DNA from: a virus
Virus record (IMG/VR): IMGVR_UViG_3300027896_000040
Location: 1 to 61,717 of that record
DNA: 61,717 nt
Strand: one strand, 5' to 3'
Under the pieces are notes generated by a model that saw only the letters and a list, made by a program, of their open reading frames with translations, was not told the DNA's origin and did not search any database. The position numbers were made by a program, and so were the translations under genes. The number at the start of each line of letters is the position of its first letter. Positions within the stretch are counted from its first letter, which is position 1. Of the stretch, positions 17,462 to 46,750 are shown in pieces.

Positions 17462-17932
17462 ATGATTATGTTAAAATTTTTGTTTATTTTCACATTACTT
17501 ACACAACAATTACTTGCAACACAATTAGATTTTGCATTTAAGTCTTCTGCATTTCAAACCAATGGTACATTTTCTAATTATGAAATAACATTAGAGAATT
17601 TAACTTATTCACGCAAACAAACTACAATTGCTCAACAAAAAGCTGATACTGCTACTGCGGTTGCTAATGCACAAAACACTCCAATAAATCAATTTATAAG
17701 TAACCTACAAGCTAGAATATATTCACAAATTGCGGCAAATGTTACAAACCAAATATTTCAAAACGGAGCTACGCAAGGTTCATTTAATCTACCCGGTGGG
17801 GCGTATGTCAATTGGGTAGTCAATGCTGGTACAGCTACTTTATCAATTTACGACCCATCTACCAACTCAACAACTACTTTAACAATTCCAGTCAGTAGTT
17901 TAATTACCCAGTCTAACGGAGGCAATGGATGA
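17462..17932 (+). CDS. csgF: Curli assembly protein CsgF
   Basis: 156 aa, near the usual ~138. Signal peptide MIMLKFLFIFTLLTQQLLAT, then LDFAFKSSAFQTNGTFSNYE, corresponding to the CsgF N-terminal segment (x-F-x-FRNPNFGGN-x-x-NG) that inserts in the CsgG pore. The helical middle (INQFISNLQARIYSQIAANV) and beta-rich C-terminus (VNAGTATLSIYDPSTNS-T-TLTIPVS) also fit. CsgF binds CsgG on the outside and couples secretion to curlin nucleation. A start six bases later (MLKF) is possible. The stop overlaps the csgG start (GGATGAGG). Confidence 0.85.
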   Translation: MIMLKFLFIFTLLTQQLLATQLDFAFKSSAFQTNGTFSNYEITLENLTYSRKQTTIAQQKADTATAVANAQNTPINQFISNLQARIYSQIAANVTNQIFQNGATQGSFNLPGGAYVNWVVNAGTATLSIYDPSTNSTTTLTIPVSSLITQSNGGNG

Positions 17933-18738
17933 GGTATCTAATAATTTTGTTAGCTATATTCTTAACAGGTTGCAGCACTACAAAAGTAAACGTTTCAAAT
18001 AAAATAGCAGAACAACCTTACGTACAAGAAAGTCCATTAGCTAAACAACTTAGAGGTTTACCAGAGTTAGATGGTCCCCCTATGACAGTTGCAGTTTATA
18101 AATTTGAAGATAAAACTGGCCAAAGAAAAACTTCCCAAACCATCGCACTATTTTCATCTGCAGTAACTCAAGGGGCTGAAAGTTGGTTAATTGATTCGTT
18201 TCAGCAAGCAAGCAACGGTAAATGGTTTATTGTACTTGAAAGAGCTGGGTTAGATGATTTGATTAAAGAAAGGCAAATGTATAGACAGGCCCGTGAAGAT
18301 TTTGAAAATTTAAAAAGCCCAGGCCCTCTAAAGCCAATGATCTTTGCTGGGGTGATAGCTGAGGGTGGTATAATAGGATATGATACTGATGTAAAGACGG
18401 GTGGTTATGGGGCTAATGTTTTAGGTATTGGTGCTAACGTACAATACTCAACTGACGTTATAACAACATCTTTACGTTTAGTAAGTACTAATACAGGTGA
18501 AGTATTAATTTCAGTAGCAGTAACAAAAACAGTGTATAGTGCAACTGTATCTGGTAATACTATGATATTTTTTAGTAACGGTACAAAGTATGGGGAAGGT
18601 GAATTAGGTGTAGGGGGTAATGAGCCAGTTACTTTAGCGTTAAGAGCTGCAATAGACGAGTCTGTTATTGAACTTATCAAACAAGGAGAGAAAAAAAGTT
18701 ATTGGAAGTTTAAGGGACAACGGAACAAAAACCAATAA
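17929..18738 (+). CDS. csgG: Curli secretion channel lipoprotein CsgG
   Basis: 269 aa, the normal CsgG length. Lipobox LTGCS at about residue 15; MTVAVYKFEDKTGQRK matches the CsgG core (VSVYNIQDETGQFK); WFIVLERAGLDDLIKERQ matches WFIPLERQGLQNLLNERK; VIAEGGIIGYDTDVKTGG matches IMVEGSIIGYESNVKSGG; the end GEGELGVGGNEPVTLALRAAI also fits. In curli systems CsgG forms a nonameric outer-membrane pore that exports unfolded curlin. GGAGG lies eight nt before the ATG, a clear Shine-Dalgarno, rare among genes in this window. Confidence 0.97.
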   Translation: MRYLIILLAIFLTGCSTTKVNVSNKIAEQPYVQESPLAKQLRGLPELDGPPMTVAVYKFEDKTGQRKTSQTIALFSSAVTQGAESWLIDSFQQASNGKWFIVLERAGLDDLIKERQMYRQAREDFENLKSPGPLKPMIFAGVIAEGGIIGYDTDVKTGGYGANVLGIGANVQYSTDVITTSLRLVSTNTGEVLISVAVTKTVYSATVSGNTMIFFSNGTKYGEGELGVGGNEPVTLALRAAIDESVIELIKQGEKKSYWKFKGQRNKNQ

Positions 18739-18754
18739 AAAAGTAAATATATAT

Positions 18755-19438
18755 ATGAACTACCTCCGAATAATTTTTGTTTTAACGTTCATTGCGTTAA
18801 AAGCACATGCTCAAAACGTTATTTACTTACAACAAATAAGTACATCTGCTACTGATAATATTACCCAAACAGGTACGTCTAACAGGGTTGGCTCTTCAAC
18901 CACACCTTCCACTATTAACGGTGATGGTGGTACGTTTACCATATCACAAATTGGTAGTAGTAATGCTTTAGATTTTAATTTAACTGGTGGTAGTTATAGT
19001 TTTTCTTTAACTAATACTGGTGACTCTAACACACAAGGTATATACTTAAACGGTAACAACAATTCGTTCTCTGGCACATTTACCGGTAGTTCAAATACAA
19101 TGCTATTTAATAAGGATGCTTCAACAGCCGGCACAACACAAGCAACCACTTTAAATGGTACGTTTGCATTTAATGTAACTGGTAATAGTAATTCATTTTT
19201 AATTGGTGAAAGCGATGGTTCGTATAACAATTTAAATTATACAGTTACTGGTAATGGAAATAGTTTTATTGCTTCACAATCGGGTACGGTTACTGGGGCA
19301 GCTGGACATTCACAAACAGTTACAACATCTGGTAACAACAATACATTAACAATTAATCAATCAGGTACATCAGCACAAACTGTTGATTTAACCCTTTCTG
19401 GTAGTAGTAATGTAATTACAGTAAAGCAAAGCCCGTAA
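18755..19438 (+). CDS. Curlin-like amyloid subunit (CsgA/CsgB type)
   Basis: 227 aa from MNYLRIIFVLTFIALKAHAQ, a clear signal peptide; a longer frame starting inside csgG is rejected. The mature part is Ser/Asn/Gly/Thr-rich with about nine irregular strand-turn units marked by G-(S/N)-x-N (GTSNRVG, GSSNALD, GDSNTQG, GNNNSFS, GNSNSFL, GNGNSFI, GNNNTLT, GSSNVIT). It ends with Q-x-G-x-S / VKQSP, like curlin repeats (S-x5-Q-x-G-x2-N-x5-Q). It is the predicted substrate of the CsgG/CsgF pore. Whether it is the major or nucleating subunit is unclear; no second curlin gene is seen. Confidence 0.85.
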   Translation: MNYLRIIFVLTFIALKAHAQNVIYLQQISTSATDNITQTGTSNRVGSSTTPSTINGDGGTFTISQIGSSNALDFNLTGGSYSFSLTNTGDSNTQGIYLNGNNNSFSGTFTGSSNTMLFNKDASTAGTTQATTLNGTFAFNVTGNSNSFLIGESDGSYNNLNYTVTGNGNSFIASQSGTVTGAAGHSQTVTTSGNNNTLTINQSGTSAQTVDLTLSGSSNVITVKQSP

Positions 19439-20373
19439 TGAAGAGCGTTGTTATAATAATAGCAACGCTCTTTCTGTGCACAAAATTATTTGCTATAGCT
19501 GGTAACATAACATCAATTACTGGCCCCACTCAAATAACTCGTTTAAACGATAAAATAAAAGGGGAGCTACAAACAATAATTGAAATGAATGATATAGTTG
19601 AGACTTTAAACTCTCGTACTGGTATTACATTTGTAGATAATACTATAGTATCGGTAACAGAGCATAGTAAATTAATAGTTGATAGCTTTGTATATGATCC
19701 ATCCAATGGTACAGGCAAGATAAGAATGAAAGCTGCATTAGGTACGATACGTTATACAACCGGTAAGATAGCACATAACAATCATAACAACGTAAACGTA
19801 CAAACACCTACAGCAAGTATTGCTGTCCGCGGTACTGACTTCAGTCTTACTGTTGATGAAATAGGAAAAAGTTTAATTATTTTATTACCTGCACTTAATA
19901 AAGAAAATGGTAAGTATAAGGTGGGGGTTATAGATGTAAAGACTGATGCAGGTTCTGTTACTTTAGATAAAGCTTTTGAAGCTACAATAGTATCAAGTGC
20001 TTTTACACCACCCACACCCCCGGTAGTTCTTAAGATAGATGAAGGTGGTATTGGCAATAACTTATTATTAGACACTCCAAAAGAAATAACAAATGATTCA
20101 ATATCTAAACAATCTCATGAAAATATAGAAAAACAACAAATACAACAAATTTACAATTCAGCTAAAGCGATTGAAGTAATTGATAATTCTAAGTTTGTAT
20201 TCGTTAATGATGGGGTTTATGCTACATTAAAAAATAATATTGGTGGTGATATTATTAGTTTAAAAATACCAGGTACTTCTAATGCAACGTTAATTTATAA
20301 TTATTCTGGAGGTACAGTATCAGCTAAGAACGGTGCTGGGGATGGAATATCAATAAATATTACACAAAGATGA
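19438..20373 (+). CDS. FecR-domain periplasmic protein
   Basis: 311 aa. Signal peptide MKSVVIIIATLFLCTKLFAI, then a FecR domain at about residues 45-140 with VETLNSRTGITFVDNTIVSV and VNVQTPTASIAVRGTDFSLT, the hallmark A-x-(V/I)-RGT-x-F. The C-terminal half has a Gln-rich stretch (NIEKQQIQQIYNSAK) and a beta-rich end. FecR domains bind envelope ligands or peptides; stand-alone versions next to CHASE2 cyclases probably sense extracellular or periplasmic state. Its ATG overlaps the curlin TAA (TAATG) and its stop overlaps the cyclase start (ATGA). Confidence 0.88.
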   Translation: MKSVVIIIATLFLCTKLFAIAGNITSITGPTQITRLNDKIKGELQTIIEMNDIVETLNSRTGITFVDNTIVSVTEHSKLIVDSFVYDPSNGTGKIRMKAALGTIRYTTGKIAHNNHNNVNVQTPTASIAVRGTDFSLTVDEIGKSLIILLPALNKENGKYKVGVIDVKTDAGSVTLDKAFEATIVSSAFTPPTPPVVLKIDEGGIGNNLLLDTPKEITNDSISKQSHENIEKQQIQQIYNSAKAIEVIDNSKFVFVNDGVYATLKNNIGGDIISLKIPGTSNATLIYNYSGGTVSAKNGAGDGISINITQR

Positions 20374-22460
20374 AGTTAAGAATTTTACTTACCGGTTTTG
20401 GTATTTTAATATTTCTTACAACGTTACGTATAGTTGACCCATATCCGATAGAAATATTGAGATTGAAAGGTTTAGATTATTATCAAAGAAAACAACAAAA
20501 AGTTAAAAGCGACAGTATAGAGGTGGTGGAAATAGACGAACAGTCGTTAATGCAATATGGTCAGTGGCCATTTCCAAGAAACATTCTAGCTGATGGTATA
20601 CAAAAAGCATTTGAAAATGAAGCTCAATTAGTTGTACTTCCAATATTATTCAGTGAACAAGATAGGCTGGGTGGTGATAAAGCTTTCTTAGATACGCTTC
20701 AAAAGTATCCAGTTATAACTTCTCAATCGGCTTCTATAAAAGGTAAAGGTACCCCAGTACCAAGAGGTGTTGCAACAATAGGTACAGGAATTAATGATTG
20801 GATATTTAACTATCCAGCTGCAATAGGCCCTACGAAAGAAATTGGCGAATCATCTGCTGGTGTAGGCATGTTACTAACAGCTCCGGAACTCGATGGTGTC
20901 ACTAGAAGAATGCCTCTTATAGTGCAAGTAAACAAAGAAACGTATCCATGCTTACCTTTAGAAGTATTGAGAATGTTTGGAGGTGAAGAATCGTTTCAAG
21001 CTAAAGTAAGCGATGCTGGTGTTGATGCAGTTAGAGTAAAAGGTATAGCGCCGATAAAGACTGATAGTAATGGACGCGTTTGGATTAACTTTAAGTATAA
21101 GTTGGATAGTATTTCTTTTGTTGATAAAGATTGGTCAAAGGTAAAAGGTAAAATAGTTATATTAGCTTTAACTGCTGAAGGGCTTAACAATACTGTAGCT
21201 ACACCGATAGGAATATCTCAAGGGTATGAAGTATCAGCTCAAACATTACAAATGCTCATTGATGGTAATAGATTGCAAAGACCAGCAGAGTTTGACTTAT
21301 ATGAGATAGGTGGAGGGGTGTTATTAGCTGCTTTATTAATTGTAGCTGCTTGTTATTTTAGTTACACTGTAAATGGCGTGGGTATTATAGCTTTATTATG
21401 TGCACCTTTTTATGTCGGATTAAGTTTATTTGAAAACGGTGGGTATCTTGTTGACTACACTTGGCCTACATTAGCTGTACTAGTACCATGGGTGGGTAGT
21501 ATATTCATGCGATTTGTAATGGAGTTTAAATTAAAGCAGCAAATAAAAAAACAGTTTGGTACTTATCTATCAAAAGATATGGTAGATCAACTTCAAAAAG
21601 ATCCAAGTTTACTTAAGTTAGGTGGAGAGACAAAAGAACTAACTATATTATTTTCAGATATTAGAGGTTATACAGCGCTGTCTGAACATTTTGGTAAAGA
21701 CGTGCAAGGGCTTACAAGTCTTATTAATCGTTATATGGATACAATGCTACCTATAATAATGAATAATAAAGGTAATGTAGGAAAATTAATTGGAGATGCA
21801 ATTATGGCTTGGTGGTCAGCTCCAATAGAGGTAAAAAATCAAGCTACGTTAGCGGTAAAAACTGCGCAAGAAATGAAAGTTGCGCTAGATAAGCTTAATA
21901 AAGAATTAATTGCTGAAGGTATACCACCGCTAGGTATTGGAGTGGGTATTAATACGGGGGAGGTGGTTGTTGGTAATATGGGATCTAAAGATAGGTTTAG
22001 TTATGATATCTTAGGAGATGCTGTTAATTTAGCTTCTCGTTTGGAAGGACAATCTAAACCATATGGTGTGTTGATAGTAATAGGAAAAAATACGAAACTA
22101 AGATTAGAAAAAGAAACTGAATGCCTCGGAGATGCTCATATGAAGATGCAAATCTTACCTTTTTTATTTGAATTAGATTGTATTGCAGTGAAAGGAAAAT
22201 CAGAAGGTATTAAAATTTATACTATTCTAGAATCCCCATTAACTGAAAATGTTAACGAAATTATAAAATTACACGATGAGTTATTGTCTAATTATAGAAT
22301 GCAAAGATGGGACAATGCTATACAATTAGCTAAATCGTCAATAACTTATAATCCTGAGTTAGCTCACTATTATCAAAATATGATAGAGAGGATTGACGAA
22401 CTCAGAAATGCTAACTTACCAGCTGATTGGGATGGAGTATTTGTTGCGAAAAGTAAATAA
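20370..22460 (+). CDS. CHASE2-domain class III adenylate/guanylate cyclase
   Basis: 696 aa. An N-terminal membrane segment (ILLTGFGILIFLTTLRI) is followed by a periplasmic CHASE2 domain (about 30-300; VVEIDEQSLMQYGQWPFPR, GGDKAFLDTL, DGVTRRMPLIVQVN). Two or three membrane spans lie at about 315-385, then a class III cyclase domain (about 420-610). Catalytic features: LFSDIRGYTALSE (metal Asp), VGKLIGDAIMAWW (second metal Asp), INTGEVVVGNMGS, DILGDAVNLASRLEGQ (transition-state Asn and Arg). It should make cAMP or cGMP; the base cannot be decided by eye. The C-terminal tail is TPR-like (RMQRWDNAIQLAKSSITYNP). It is the last gene of the curli operon and the likely source of ligand for the protein at 16794-17444. 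Confidence 0.95.
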   Translation: MKLRILLTGFGILIFLTTLRIVDPYPIEILRLKGLDYYQRKQQKVKSDSIEVVEIDEQSLMQYGQWPFPRNILADGIQKAFENEAQLVVLPILFSEQDRLGGDKAFLDTLQKYPVITSQSASIKGKGTPVPRGVATIGTGINDWIFNYPAAIGPTKEIGESSAGVGMLLTAPELDGVTRRMPLIVQVNKETYPCLPLEVLRMFGGEESFQAKVSDAGVDAVRVKGIAPIKTDSNGRVWINFKYKLDSISFVDKDWSKVKGKIVILALTAEGLNNTVATPIGISQGYEVSAQTLQMLIDGNRLQRPAEFDLYEIGGGVLLAALLIVAACYFSYTVNGVGIIALLCAPFYVGLSLFENGGYLVDYTWPTLAVLVPWVGSIFMRFVMEFKLKQQIKKQFGTYLSKDMVDQLQKDPSLLKLGGETKELTILFSDIRGYTALSEHFGKDVQGLTSLINRYMDTMLPIIMNNKGNVGKLIGDAIMAWWSAPIEVKNQATLAVKTAQEMKVALDKLNKELIAEGIPPLGIGVGINTGEVVVGNMGSKDRFSYDILGDAVNLASRLEGQSKPYGVLIVIGKNTKLRLEKETECLGDAHMKMQILPFLFELDCIAVKGKSEGIKIYTILESPLTENVNEIIKLHDELLSNYRMQRWDNAIQLAKSSITYNPELAHYYQNMIERIDELRNANLPADWDGVFVAKSK

Positions 22461-39922: not shown

Positions 39923-40016
39923 TGGTAGTCCTGCTCGGAATTGAACCGAGGCTCGGCGCCAATCTAGCGCACACAGTTTATAAGACTGTCGGTGCTTCCA
40001 ATTACACTACAGGACT
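39923..40016 (-). tRNA. tRNA with anticodon TAT and class II variable arm
   Basis: Acceptor AGTCCTG / CAGGACT, anticodon stem ACAGT / ACTGT, loop CTTATAA (UAU, Ile codon AUA), T arm CTCGG-TTCAATT-CCGAG, CCA. A 22-nt variable arm (TGCGC / GCGCC hairpin) is unexpected for Ile. Confidence 0.75.
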
Positions 40017-40961: not shown

Positions 40962-41331
40962 TTATACCTTTTGTTTGCCCATTTTTGTCTTGTTAATTCT
41001 AAAAACAAAACCATTTTTTCCCTTTAAATCATCCCAACCTACGTATATGACTTTATCATTTGGTAACAAACAAGCAAACACATCCACGTCTTTTTTTGTA
41101 TATGTAAATTCATAATTTGGACCAGATTTATGTATTGAAAAAGGAATCAAATTATTACTGTTAATAGATGCTAAATTTTTTACTTGTATTTTAATACATT
41201 TATAATCAACAATTGTTATTATATCCACTTTACAAAGATCTCCCAATTCTTTAAATATTGGTAAACCTTTTTTTGTTAACCCCAACGCTACCGCTATCTC
41301 TCCAATATTTCCTTTTTTGTTTACTGTGCAT
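40962..41331 (-). pseudogene. PD-(D/E)XK homing-endonuclease-like gene with frameshift
   Basis: The main frame (40962-41285) encodes LTKKGLPIFKELGDLCKVDI, IKIQVKNLA and YTKKDVDVFACLLPNDKVIY, fitting the group-I-intron-associated PD-(D/E)XK endonuclease family (I-Ssp6803I type; D ... QVK active site). It has no ATG. The expected N-terminus (MHSKQK + GNIGEIAVALG) is present upstream from an ATG at 41329-41331, but in another frame; the two join if one base of an A6 run (41313-41318) is skipped. It lies beside, not inside, the group I intron of tRNA-Lys. A homopolymer sequencing error or programmed slippage is possible. Confidence 0.6.
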
Positions 41332-41381: not shown

Positions 41382-41647
41382 TGGTGGGGGCATAGGGACT
41401 TGAACCCTAAACCTACTGCTTAACATACCACTATAGCTTTCGCTACATAGCTTTCGCTACTGCGTGGTCTGGACTATGCCTTCACCATTTGACAGGTGGG
41501 TGATTATAGTCTCTACACCTTCCCTTTCGGGCTTGGCTCGGCGTTGGGAGGTTAAACCGTTCACCGAATTTACACCATTCACGTATAATCTTTCGATTAT
41601 AGTGCTCCTATTAAAGGCAGCTGCTCTAACCATTGAGCTATACCCCC
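41382..41647 (-). tRNA. tRNA-Lys(TTT) interrupted by a group I intron
   Basis: 5' exon GGGGGTATAGCTCAATGG... ends at CTGCCTT; 3' exon starts TTAAGCAG and ends CCCCC-A-CCA. Joined, they give a standard cloverleaf: acceptor GGGGGTA / TGCCCCC, stem GCTGC / GCAGT, loop CTTTTAA. The intron sits between anticodon positions 34 and 35, the place used by group I introns in several bacterial tRNAs. Confidence 0.85.
41424..41613 (-). mobile_element. Group I intron (about 190 nt) in tRNA-Lys
   Basis: It ends in G before the 3' exon. Core elements visible on the minus strand: CGCCGAGCCAAGCCC (P3/P4 region), AAGGTGTAGAGACTATAATC (P6-P7 region) and GAAGGCATAGTCCAGACC (P7 3' strand). Peripheral hairpins AGCGAAAGCT follow. 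No ORF inside. The exact 5' splice site is uncertain by one T because of a T-run. Confidence 0.85.
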
Positions 41648-41652
41648 ATAAA

Positions 41653-41674
41653 ATAATGGCACCTCTAATCTGGT
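41653..41674. repeat. Small hairpin upstream of tRNA-Lys
   Basis: GGCACC-TCTAATCT-GGTGCC inverted repeat within a tRNA-like but unpaired stretch (41655-41740). Possibly a decayed tRNA or a processing/terminator hairpin. Confidence 0.35.
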
Positions 41675-41767
41675 GCCCAGAGAATTGAAACCTTCGTGCA
41701 CGGCAATATCTAGAAGAGCAGTACACTACATGTCACTCTGTCGCGAAATTGTTAAAAGAACATAACA

Positions 41768-44194: not shown

Positions 44195-44269
44195 TGGCTG
44201 CTCGGGTTCGGATCGAACGAACGACTCTTCGCTTAACAGGCGAGCACTCTGCCCCTGAGTTACCGAGCA
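44195..44269 (-). tRNA. tRNA-Asn(GTT)
   Basis: Acceptor TGCTCGG / CCGAGCA, G73, loop CTGTTAA, T arm GTTCG-TTCGATC-CGAAC, CCA encoded. Confidence 0.9.
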
Positions 44270-44579: not shown

Positions 44580-44672
44580 TGGTGGGCAAGGAGGGAATCG
44601 AACCCCCAATGTTACTCGAAAGAGAACGGATTTACAGTCCGTTGCTACACAACCAATAGTAGCCTCTTACCC
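44580..44672 (-). tRNA. tRNA-Tyr(GTA)
   Basis: Acceptor GGGTAAG / CTTGCCC, stem ACGGA / TCCGT, loop CTGTAAA, long variable arm, CCA encoded. Its 5' end overlaps the HNH endonuclease stop by 6 nt. Confidence 0.92.
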
Positions 44673-45440
44673 TTTATAGCATTTTCTAGGTATAGGGGTA
44701 TATTCAGGTATAAATTTTTTCCATAATTTACACAAACTCGTTAAAGAGTAATTATATTCTTTTTGTGTGTGTAAGAAATCTCTGACTGACCTACAACCGC
44801 TACTTAAAAAATTATTATATAGTTTTCTTGCAAAAACTTGTTTATTATGCTGCCTTTCTAGTTGTCTTTTTTTGTTTAAAACGTCTTTTTCCTGTTTGAT
44901 TTTCTTACGCGTAGCTTTTTTAACTTGTTTTTGGTAATTTAGTTCCTGTCTTTTATTAAAACTATCAAAATTAATAACTCTACCTTTACGCCAACCTTCA
45001 GGTATAATGTCGGTTTTGTTAATGCGTTTAGACTGTCTTAAGACAGGGTTATGTATCCATTTCATATTAAAACATTGATTGTTACTGCCTTTATTTGCTA
45101 TTGAATTATGTTTACCTATTGCTAGAGCATGTTTACGTTTTAGCCAACCATAAAGTTTATTATTAAATCTTCCACAGCACATTTTATGAGCAGCAAACAC
45201 TAACAAGGAGTTATTAGGGTATATCTTTACAAGCAATTGATGTGCAACATAATGCTCTTCCGGAGTCAAAGCAACTAGATTATTGGGATCATCAGACCCA
45301 CCCATACATTTGGGTATAACGTGATGCTTTTCAGTGTAACCTTCTAAAGAAGTTCTACTCTTAGCTTTTTCAATTAATCTTTCATATATTAAACTGTAGT
45401 TCACTCTGTTAATATTTATGCTAGAACAGGTCAACCTCAT
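44667..45440 (-). CDS. HNH homing endonuclease
   Basis: 257 aa. LIYERLIEKAKSR then GYTEKHHVIPKCMGGSDDPN with NLVALTPEEHYVAHQLLVKI, the standard phage HNH layout (H-H-I/V-P ... N ... H). The basic C-terminal half is a likely DNA-binding part (KKATRKKIKQEKDVLNKKR). It lies between a 5' fragment resembling tRNA-Tyr (45457-45496) and the intact tRNA-Tyr, whose end it overlaps, as expected for a self-propagating endonuclease gene that invaded a tRNA locus. Confidence 0.9.
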   Translation of the reverse strand: MRLTCSSININRVNYSLIYERLIEKAKSRTSLEGYTEKHHVIPKCMGGSDDPNNLVALTPEEHYVAHQLLVKIYPNNSLLVFAAHKMCCGRFNNKLYGWLKRKHALAIGKHNSIANKGSNNQCFNMKWIHNPVLRQSKRINKTDIIPEGWRKGRVINFDSFNKRQELNYQKQVKKATRKKIKQEKDVLNKKRQLERQHNKQVFARKLYNNFLSSGCRSVRDFLHTQKEYNYSLTSLCKLWKKFIPEYTPIPRKCYKG

Positions 45441-45672: not shown

Positions 45673-45761
45673 TGGAGGCTCCTCCCGGACTCGAACCGAG
45701 AAACGACTTTCGTCTATGCTTCTTTACAAAAGAAGTCCTGTACCAATTGAGGCAAGGAGCC
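45673..45761 (-). tRNA. tRNA-Thr(TGT) with long variable arm
   Basis: Acceptor GGCTCCT / AGGAGCC, stem CTTCT / AGAAG, loop TTTGTAA, T arm CTCGG-TTCGAGT-CCGGG, CCA. The 18-nt variable region has a GAC-GAAA-GTC hairpin, unexpected for Thr. Confidence 0.8.
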
Positions 45762-46105: not shown

Positions 46106-46750
46106 TTAATCAATATGTAAATAAGGTTTCCATTCATCTCTTATGGTGAAGTTTTCTGGGATAATGGAAGCGTACATACTGCTAATTTTTGGATTAACTT
46201 CTTTACCATCGACATCAAAGTAAGGGTATTTGTTATCCTTGGCACTATTGCAAGAACGGCAAGCAAGTACGAGGTTAAAGTCATGATTAGTACCACCTAA
46301 AGATCTCGGATAAAGATGGTCTTTAGTTGCTTCTGACATAGAAACCTTTTCATAGCAGTACTGGCAAATACCTTTATAAACAGAGTAAAGATATTTGAGT
46401 GAAACATATTCACCTGTTTTACGTCTGTAACCGAAATGGTAATTACACAATAGTATGGTTGGTACTGCCCATTGCTTTTCAGTACCGATTACTGGGTCTG
46501 GAGCACTACGAAGACAAGGTTGGTCCTCGAAAAGAGATACTTCATTATTGTACCAACGTAAAGTGCTTGGTGTGTTTCCAAGTTGAATATCAGTACCAGA
46601 CCACGATACAATGTTACCCATTGCATCGATACCTTTAACTCTATCAGTCATAAGGTGTCTAATAGCAGCTCTAGCTGTAACTAAAGCAATAGCTTGGTGG
46701 TTGCGGTTGAGTAAAAGAGAAGTTTTTTCTTGTGGTTGTACTGCTTTCAT
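46106..46750 (-). CDS. HNH endonuclease (Cys-containing type)
   Basis: 214 aa. C-terminal HNH core: GICQYCYEKVSMSEATKDHL then YPRSLGGTNHDFNLVLACRS-C-NSAKDNK, that is two Cys-x2-Cys pairs (CQYC, CRSC), the His in DHLYPRS and the Asn in NHDFNLV. This is the HNH_5-like type of bacterial and phage nucleases. The N-terminal half is unassigned. It could be a free-standing homing endonuclease. Confidence 0.85.
   Translation of the reverse strand: MKAVQPQEKTSLLLNRNHQAIALVTARAAIRHLMTDRVKGIDAMGNIVSWSGTDIQLGNTPSTLRWYNNEVSLFEDQPCLRSAPDPVIGTEKQWAVPTILLCNYHFGYRRKTGEYVSLKYLYSVYKGICQYCYEKVSMSEATKDHLYPRSLGGTNHDFNLVLACRSCNSAKDNKYPYFDVDGKEVNPKISSMYASIIPENFTIRDEWKPYLHID

Follow-up and report, generated by a model that had tools for sequence, protein, structure and literature searches.

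A short insert interrupts the anticodon of a tRNA-Lys gene in the viral genome analysed here (the whole stretch of 61,717 nucleotides is called the window), and it raises the question of whether this insert is a group I intron that splices and, if so, how such an element could have reached a phage tRNA gene. A review published in 2014 confines phage introns to protein genes and ties their absence from tRNA genes to protein-gene targets being better suited to homing endonucleases (PMC3984707). The gene in question occupies positions 41647–41382 of the minus strand as one complete tRNA-Lys(UUU) in two exons around an insert of 190 nt (Table 1). With introns allowed, ARAGORN returned a single tRNA, c[41382,41647], with an intron of 190 nt; by default the program did not call the split tRNA-Lys in the window. 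Once ligated, the exons form a tRNA of 76 nt in which every stem is paired, the loop reads CUUUUAA, the discriminator is A73 and the CCA is encoded. The point of insertion falls between U34 and U35 of the anticodon, and the intron ends in G at the 3' junction, ...GUGGUAUG|UUAA.

Table 1. Positions of the split tRNA-Lys(UUU) gene, its intron and neighbouring features in the window.
Feature	Position	Strand	Evidence or remark
tRNA-Lys(UUU) 5' exon: acceptor 5' strand, D arm, anticodon 5' strand, C32 U33 U34	41614..41647	-	ARAGORN with introns; boundary from terminal G, U·G rule and guide pairing
tRNA-Lys(UUU) 3' exon: U35 U36 A37 A38, anticodon 3' strand, T arm, acceptor, encoded CCA	41382..41423	-	
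Group I intron, 190 nt, UAAUAGGAGC...GUGGUAUG	41424..41613	-	R1, held out, 97.9 bits, E=5e-30; RF00028 E=1.3e-6
Internal guide UAGGAG: P1 with C32 U33 U34 (U·G at splice site), P10 with U35 U36 A37	41605..41610	-	
P2 hairpin, GAAA cap	41584..41602	-	
P3: 5' strand GGUG; 3' strand CACC	41573..41576; 41499-41502	-	Pairing read in the sequence; each of the four P3 pairs shows covariation in relatives
P4: 5' strand UCGGUG; 3' strand CGCCGA	41562..41567; 41538-41543	-	Family covariation and R1 match
P6/P6a, GCCAAGCCCGAAAGGGAAGGU	41517..41537	-	Family covariation and R1 match
P7 (guanosine-binding helix): 5' strand GACUA; 3' strand UAGUC	41507..41511; 41472-41476	-	
P8, CACC...GGUG	41479..41498	-	Family covariation and R1 match
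P9: perfect 2 x 14-nt tandem repeat, two identical GUAGCGAAAGCUAU hairpins	41433..41460	-	
Outer P9, CCAC/GUGG	41464-41467 and 41428-41431	-	
PDDEXK_5 endonuclease-like ORF, between split tRNA-Lys and tmRNA, just downstream of the tRNA	40962..41285	-	Pfam PF11645, 29.4 bits against a cutoff of 26.1
tmRNA within the tRNA cluster, unusual tag AKLTSKVKGYFAKLSEAFVPEVTPLAA	40483-40871	-	Rfam, 109.7 bits

Relatives of the insert were gathered by a core pattern, and 21 of them, all tRNA introns of other phages or of bacteria, were aligned without the window (alignment A2) and used to build a covariance model (R1) from which the window intron was held out. Across the 61.7 kb window this model had a sole match, at 41581–41467 on the minus strand, with 97.9 bits and E = 5e-30 (a rough value, from a short calibration). 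Pairs were counted over P3, P4, P5, P6, P6a, P7 and P8 in the alignment of the 21 relatives, and in the relatives only because MAFFT misplaces the P3 3' strand of the window intron; 98.9% of the cells were paired and 15 of the 29 pairs had double-sided changes, none of 500 shuffles was as good, and sliding a strand by one to three columns left 26–42% paired. The window intron shares both alignment and model with the tRNA-Leu, tRNA-Arg and tRNA-Lys introns, the tetraloops, P7 and tRNA stems of its own copy are intact, and the fold of the pre-tRNA is more stable than all 200 shuffles (z = -4.3). The comparison with Rfam by Infernal that the preliminary description had proposed gave a mixed outcome: in a 601-base search RF00028 matched the intron with E = 1.3e-6, but with 32.8 bits it stayed under the curated cutoff of 50 bits, and neither Rfam at its gathering threshold nor RF00028 run over the whole record returned a match. 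The missed threshold says little and was not taken as a negative, because RF00028 likewise misses the sister tRNA-Leu introns of three phages (L004, L006 and L007); on a phage protein-gene locus it scores 77–78 bits. Other parts of that description held: the group I assignment by the held-out score and the covarying family, the length of 190 nt and the terminal G by the interval 41613–41424, the P3/P4/P7 segments by helices that were located in the window and covary in the relatives, and the lack of an ORF by the finding that none is confined to the intron, both overlapping frames (41457–41726, minus; 41464–41688, plus) extending into the exons and flanks. Judged by these sequence signatures, the stretch 41613–41424 is almost certainly a group I intron inside tRNA-Lys(UUU). 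By comparison with the Azoarcus and Anabaena introns it may belong to subgroup IC3.

In group I introns the U preceding the intron pairs with a guide G in P1, and the intron ends in G (PMC11915505). In the window intron, 6 of 6 positions of the guide UAGGAG find a partner in the CUU|UUA of the ligated loop, with U34·G in CUU/GAG at the 5' splice site and with all three P10 positions filled (UAG with U35 U36 A37). Such complete pairing was found in 26 of the 32 introns at the U34|U35 site, which had been chosen by their 3' exon and not by their guide. In introns with a CUU 5' exon loop, the P10 triplet changes with the 3' exon. Exons with AAA (Leu) are matched by UUU or AUU, those with UUA (Lys) by UAG, those with GUA (Thr) by UAC and those with UGG (anticodon UUG) by UCG. 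This match between P10 and exon held in 30 of 45 cases against a permutation mean of 20.4 (p ~1.5e-4; the cases represent 15 distinct combinations that, owing to shared ancestry, are not fully independent). In the splicing pathway proposed, pairing of the transcribed guide with C32-U33-U34 would set U34 opposite a G and so form the U·G pair of the 5' splice site. The core P3–P8 would fold so that P7 can take up the guanosine cofactor, and P10 would align the 3' exon. An external guanosine would then attack after U34, the freed U34 would in turn attack behind the terminal G, and normal maturation of the ligated tRNA would follow.

An uninterrupted form of the gene is found in a related phage. 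Relatives of the window phage were identified via a glycosyltransferase (the 309-aa ORF adjoining the tRNA had a single distant relative), and one phage contig, L164, is about 71% identical in DNA to the window over 2.8 kb and has a tmRNA and a tRNA-Lys(UUU) whose order and orientation match those in the window. Its tRNA-Lys(UUU) is an uninterrupted 76-mer, identical to the joined window exons at 58 of 76 positions and equal to the predicted spliced product in loop and length; it shows the form expected after splicing. R1 detected no intron in the L164 record, and no copy of the PDDEXK_5 gene was detected in it. The tmRNA of the window has its homologue in this contig, which likewise has a tRNA-Ile(tat), of 90 nt.

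The identity of the tRNA depends on how the final G is counted. ARAGORN labelled the gene Asn(gtt) i(34,190), which would make it a tRNA-Asn(GUU) interrupted behind U33, and counting the final G as exon does produce the loop CUGUUAA; the program arrives at this label because the terminal G of group I introns is not among its rules. An Asn identity is nonetheless very improbable, since it would leave the intron with a terminal U instead of G, the guide matches the Lys loop at every position and the discriminator is A73. A genuine Asn intron (L103) has two Gs at its 3' junction, the intron end and G34, whereas the window has one; moreover, a separate Asn(gtt) tRNA lies at 44195 and default ARAGORN found no further tRNA-Lys in the window, and the syntenic tRNA of L164 is Lys(UUU). 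The Asn(gtt) label was dropped on the evidence of the terminal G, guide pairing, discriminator and synteny, and the tRNA-Lys(UUU) identity given in the preliminary description follows when the exons are joined under the terminal-G rule. The anticodon-loop position is also the one used by protein-spliced introns of the archaeal and eukaryotic type, so that the insert could be such an intron, or a chance insertion resembling group I; against this stand the match of E = 5e-30 to a covarying group I family and the dozens of same-site homologues in phages and bacteria, and the probability left to either origin is negligible.

It could also be asked whether this group I intron is still active. Its J3/4 is one base shorter than in the relatives and its J7/3 reads UAAU where the relatives have GACGG, differences that might weaken its activity; the 14-nt duplication in P9 is recent, and these oddities may together tune or weaken splicing. 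A strict pattern with the window's own guide and J3/4 had no other match over the viral contigs, which indicates that the intron is a diverged member of the family. The junction differences, the duplication and the shifted frame of the downstream endonuclease would all suit a degenerate group I intron that no longer splices within a tRNA pseudogene. Such decay is unlikely, given that the tRNA stems, CCA, guide, P4, P6, P7, P8 and terminal G are all intact and that no second Lys tRNA was found in the window. Taken together, a group I intron in tRNA-Lys(UUU) that splices is a highly probable reading of the sequence; active splicing in vivo is quite likely, and the intron is probably self-splicing.

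Introns of this class are widespread in phage tRNA genes. Among the matches listed, the core lies inside a tRNA in 103 of the 120 viral contigs with the core pattern (by ARAGORN), mostly in Leu(UAA) and otherwise in Lys, Arg, Thr and Asn; the remaining ones are mostly in apparent protein genes. The ARAGORN labels of intron-bearing tRNAs are partly wrong, and the Tyr(ata) and some of the Ser and Phe calls in relatives were rejected by eye as Leu(UAA) introns with mis-set boundaries. With a second scan, targeted at the Lys 3' junction, the tally of tRNA-Lys(UUU) introns at the exact U34|U35 site rose to at least 25 viral contigs or genomes besides the window, some of which may be fragments or prophage, and seven bacterial contigs, among them a Clostridium MAG and three of Microbacterium. 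The same tRNA-Lys site is also occupied by a second intron lineage, a distant one with a similar guide (L133, L134, L135, L153 and L154); R1 gives only 35–40 bits on its members L134 and L153, and in L134 a virion structural protein lies beside the intron. Elsewhere, Agrobacterium phage Atu_ph07 (L004) has an unannotated group I intron of 278 nt in tRNA-Leu(UAA), Microcoleus phage My-WqHQDG (L001) has one of 213 nt in tRNA-Arg(CCT), and two huge phages (L006 and L007) have unannotated ones in tRNA-Leu(UAA). The intron of L007 is enlarged by a long insert that apparently encodes a protein of the HNH type. The preliminary description had placed phage introns usually in protein genes, which agrees with the literature (PMC3984707) but not with the present data, in which the same class is common in phage tRNAs. 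A survey of recoded jumbo phages from 2026 reports tRNA introns and does not call them group I (PMC13037316), and a search of the open-access literature turned up no paper on group I introns in phage tRNAs. A cyanobacterial tRNA-Lys ‘group I intron’ (PMC5733544) was rejected as a precedent, being at most 49 nt long and too short for a group I core.

One of the same-site introns belongs to an isolate, Gordonia phage Daredevil (L074/L176, NC_048021.1), in which a tRNA-Lys(TTT) at 2340–2651 is split by a group I intron of 238 nt beside the integrase. The split gene is absent from the annotation of the record, and the phage has been reported to integrate in the host tRNA-Lys-TTT and to have no tRNA of its own (PMC10865867), so that its split tRNA-Lys seems to have been missed in earlier work. 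A little upstream of it lies GGACTTTTAATCCGC, a sequence of the Lys anticodon loop that probably forms the core of attP. As an isolate with the same intron site, Daredevil makes both splicing and tRNA-dependent lysogeny directly testable.

A candidate for the spread of the intron is encoded next to it. What is new is the presence of a PDDEXK_5 endonuclease relative just downstream of the split tRNA-Lys. The conserved N-terminal stretch of this ORF lies in another frame (about 41286–41329), so the frame of the whole domain is not intact, and the window copy is probably decayed, or else affected by an assembly error in an A-run. No relative of the ORF was found in the viral contig scan, and no sequence relative in the PDB. 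The tRNA-Lys introns of L138, L154 and L158 contain genes for homologues, the protein in L154 being 38% identical to the window ORF, and in L144 a complete PDDEXK_5 gene starts about 60–100 nt downstream of the split tRNA-Lys. The ORF in the L138 intron is open only if TGA is read as Trp, which suggests a phage with a recoded stop codon. In the route proposed, the PDDEXK_5 endonuclease would cut uninterrupted tRNA-Lys genes and the intron would have reached tRNA-Lys by homing driven by it. The gene of the enzyme lies within the intron in some lineages; in the window phage and L144 it follows directly downstream, an arrangement that would amount to collaborative homing. Homing of this type, by ORF-less introns with free-standing endonucleases nearby, has been described in phage protein genes, psbA among them (Zeng et al. 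2009, as cited in PMC3984707), and by analogy we infer that the tRNA and PDDEXK_5 arrangement may operate in the same way. From gene context and homology, spread of the intron by PDDEXK_5 homing into tRNA-Lys has a chance somewhat short of even. Present-day mobility of the window copy is rated low, because the endonuclease start is in another frame and the protein has no sequence relative in the PDB.

Further features of the window were noted. Two HNH endonuclease genes, one weak and one clear, lie in or adjoining the tRNA cluster (44667–45440 and 46106–46750, both minus). A tRNA-Ile(tat) of 94 nt (39923–40016, minus) and a tRNA-Thr(tgt) of 89 nt (45673–45761, minus) each have a long variable arm, unusual for their identity. 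Genes for a CsgG-like protein, a FecR-domain protein and a CHASE2 adenylate/guanylate cyclase are clustered at 17929–22460 (plus), in what looks like an envelope-sensing and secretion module.

These data contradict the review of 2014 (PMC3984707), in that phage tRNA introns are many, at least for this core. In environmental phages their guides are matched to several anticodon loops, and an endonuclease family is associated with them at tRNA-Lys. Phage tRNA repertoires are undercounted because default tRNA finders miss split genes. A broader reading, tentative and on the doubtful side, would be that mobile group I introns have in phage tRNA genes a major habitat that has been overlooked, that two lineages have converged on the U34|U35 site of tRNA-Lys(UUU), and that their spread is due to homing by a PDDEXK_5 endonuclease targeting the anticodon region, whose gene lies within the intron or shortly after the tRNA; where the integrase of a phage acts on the host tRNA-Lys, as in Daredevil, the intron could also hide the phage's own tRNA from the integrase.

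By every sequence feature tested, the window intron is of the bacterial tRNA type of group I introns, with which it shares small size, lack of an ORF, a place in the anticodon loop, a 5' exon ending in U, a terminal G and the P3–P9 layout. In the collected Leu(UAA) introns, UUUGAG or a variant pairs with CUU|AAA in the same geometry as in the window. It differs from the bacterial type in its phage genome, its place after U34 of a tRNA-Lys(UUU), the change of the guide to UAGGAG and the tandem duplicated hairpin in P9. The same-site tRNA-Lys introns of Daredevil, of other viral contigs (L095, L131, L136 and L139) and of Microbacterium (L156, L159 and L162) have the tRNA, the U34|U35 site, UAGGAG, the core and the terminal G in common with it; they differ in length, the window intron having 190 nt against 238 nt in Daredevil and 181–254 nt in most other ORF-less copies, and the viral copies are nearly all from uncultured contigs. 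With the group I introns of phage protein genes it shares the ribozyme class, tailed phages as hosts and a frequent link to homing endonucleases, the difference being that its host gene is a tRNA. A further parallel is I-Ssp6803I, a PD-(D/E)XK homing endonuclease encoded in a cyanobacterial tRNA-fMet intron, which we assume to belong to PF11645. Both this enzyme and the window ORF are of the PD-(D/E)XK type and tied to a tRNA group I intron; the window ORF, a predicted endonuclease, differs in lying outside the intron, in having its start in another frame and in lacking a sequence match in the PDB. Collaborative homing (Zeng et al. 2009) offers a likeness too, in that an intron lacking an ORF lies next to the gene of an endonuclease of a kind linked to its site of insertion; the earlier cases concern phage protein genes such as psbA, and the present one would involve a tRNA and a PDDEXK_5 enzyme. 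The window intron is in sum a known kind of element, in a setting, the phage tRNA, that the literature consulted had called empty.
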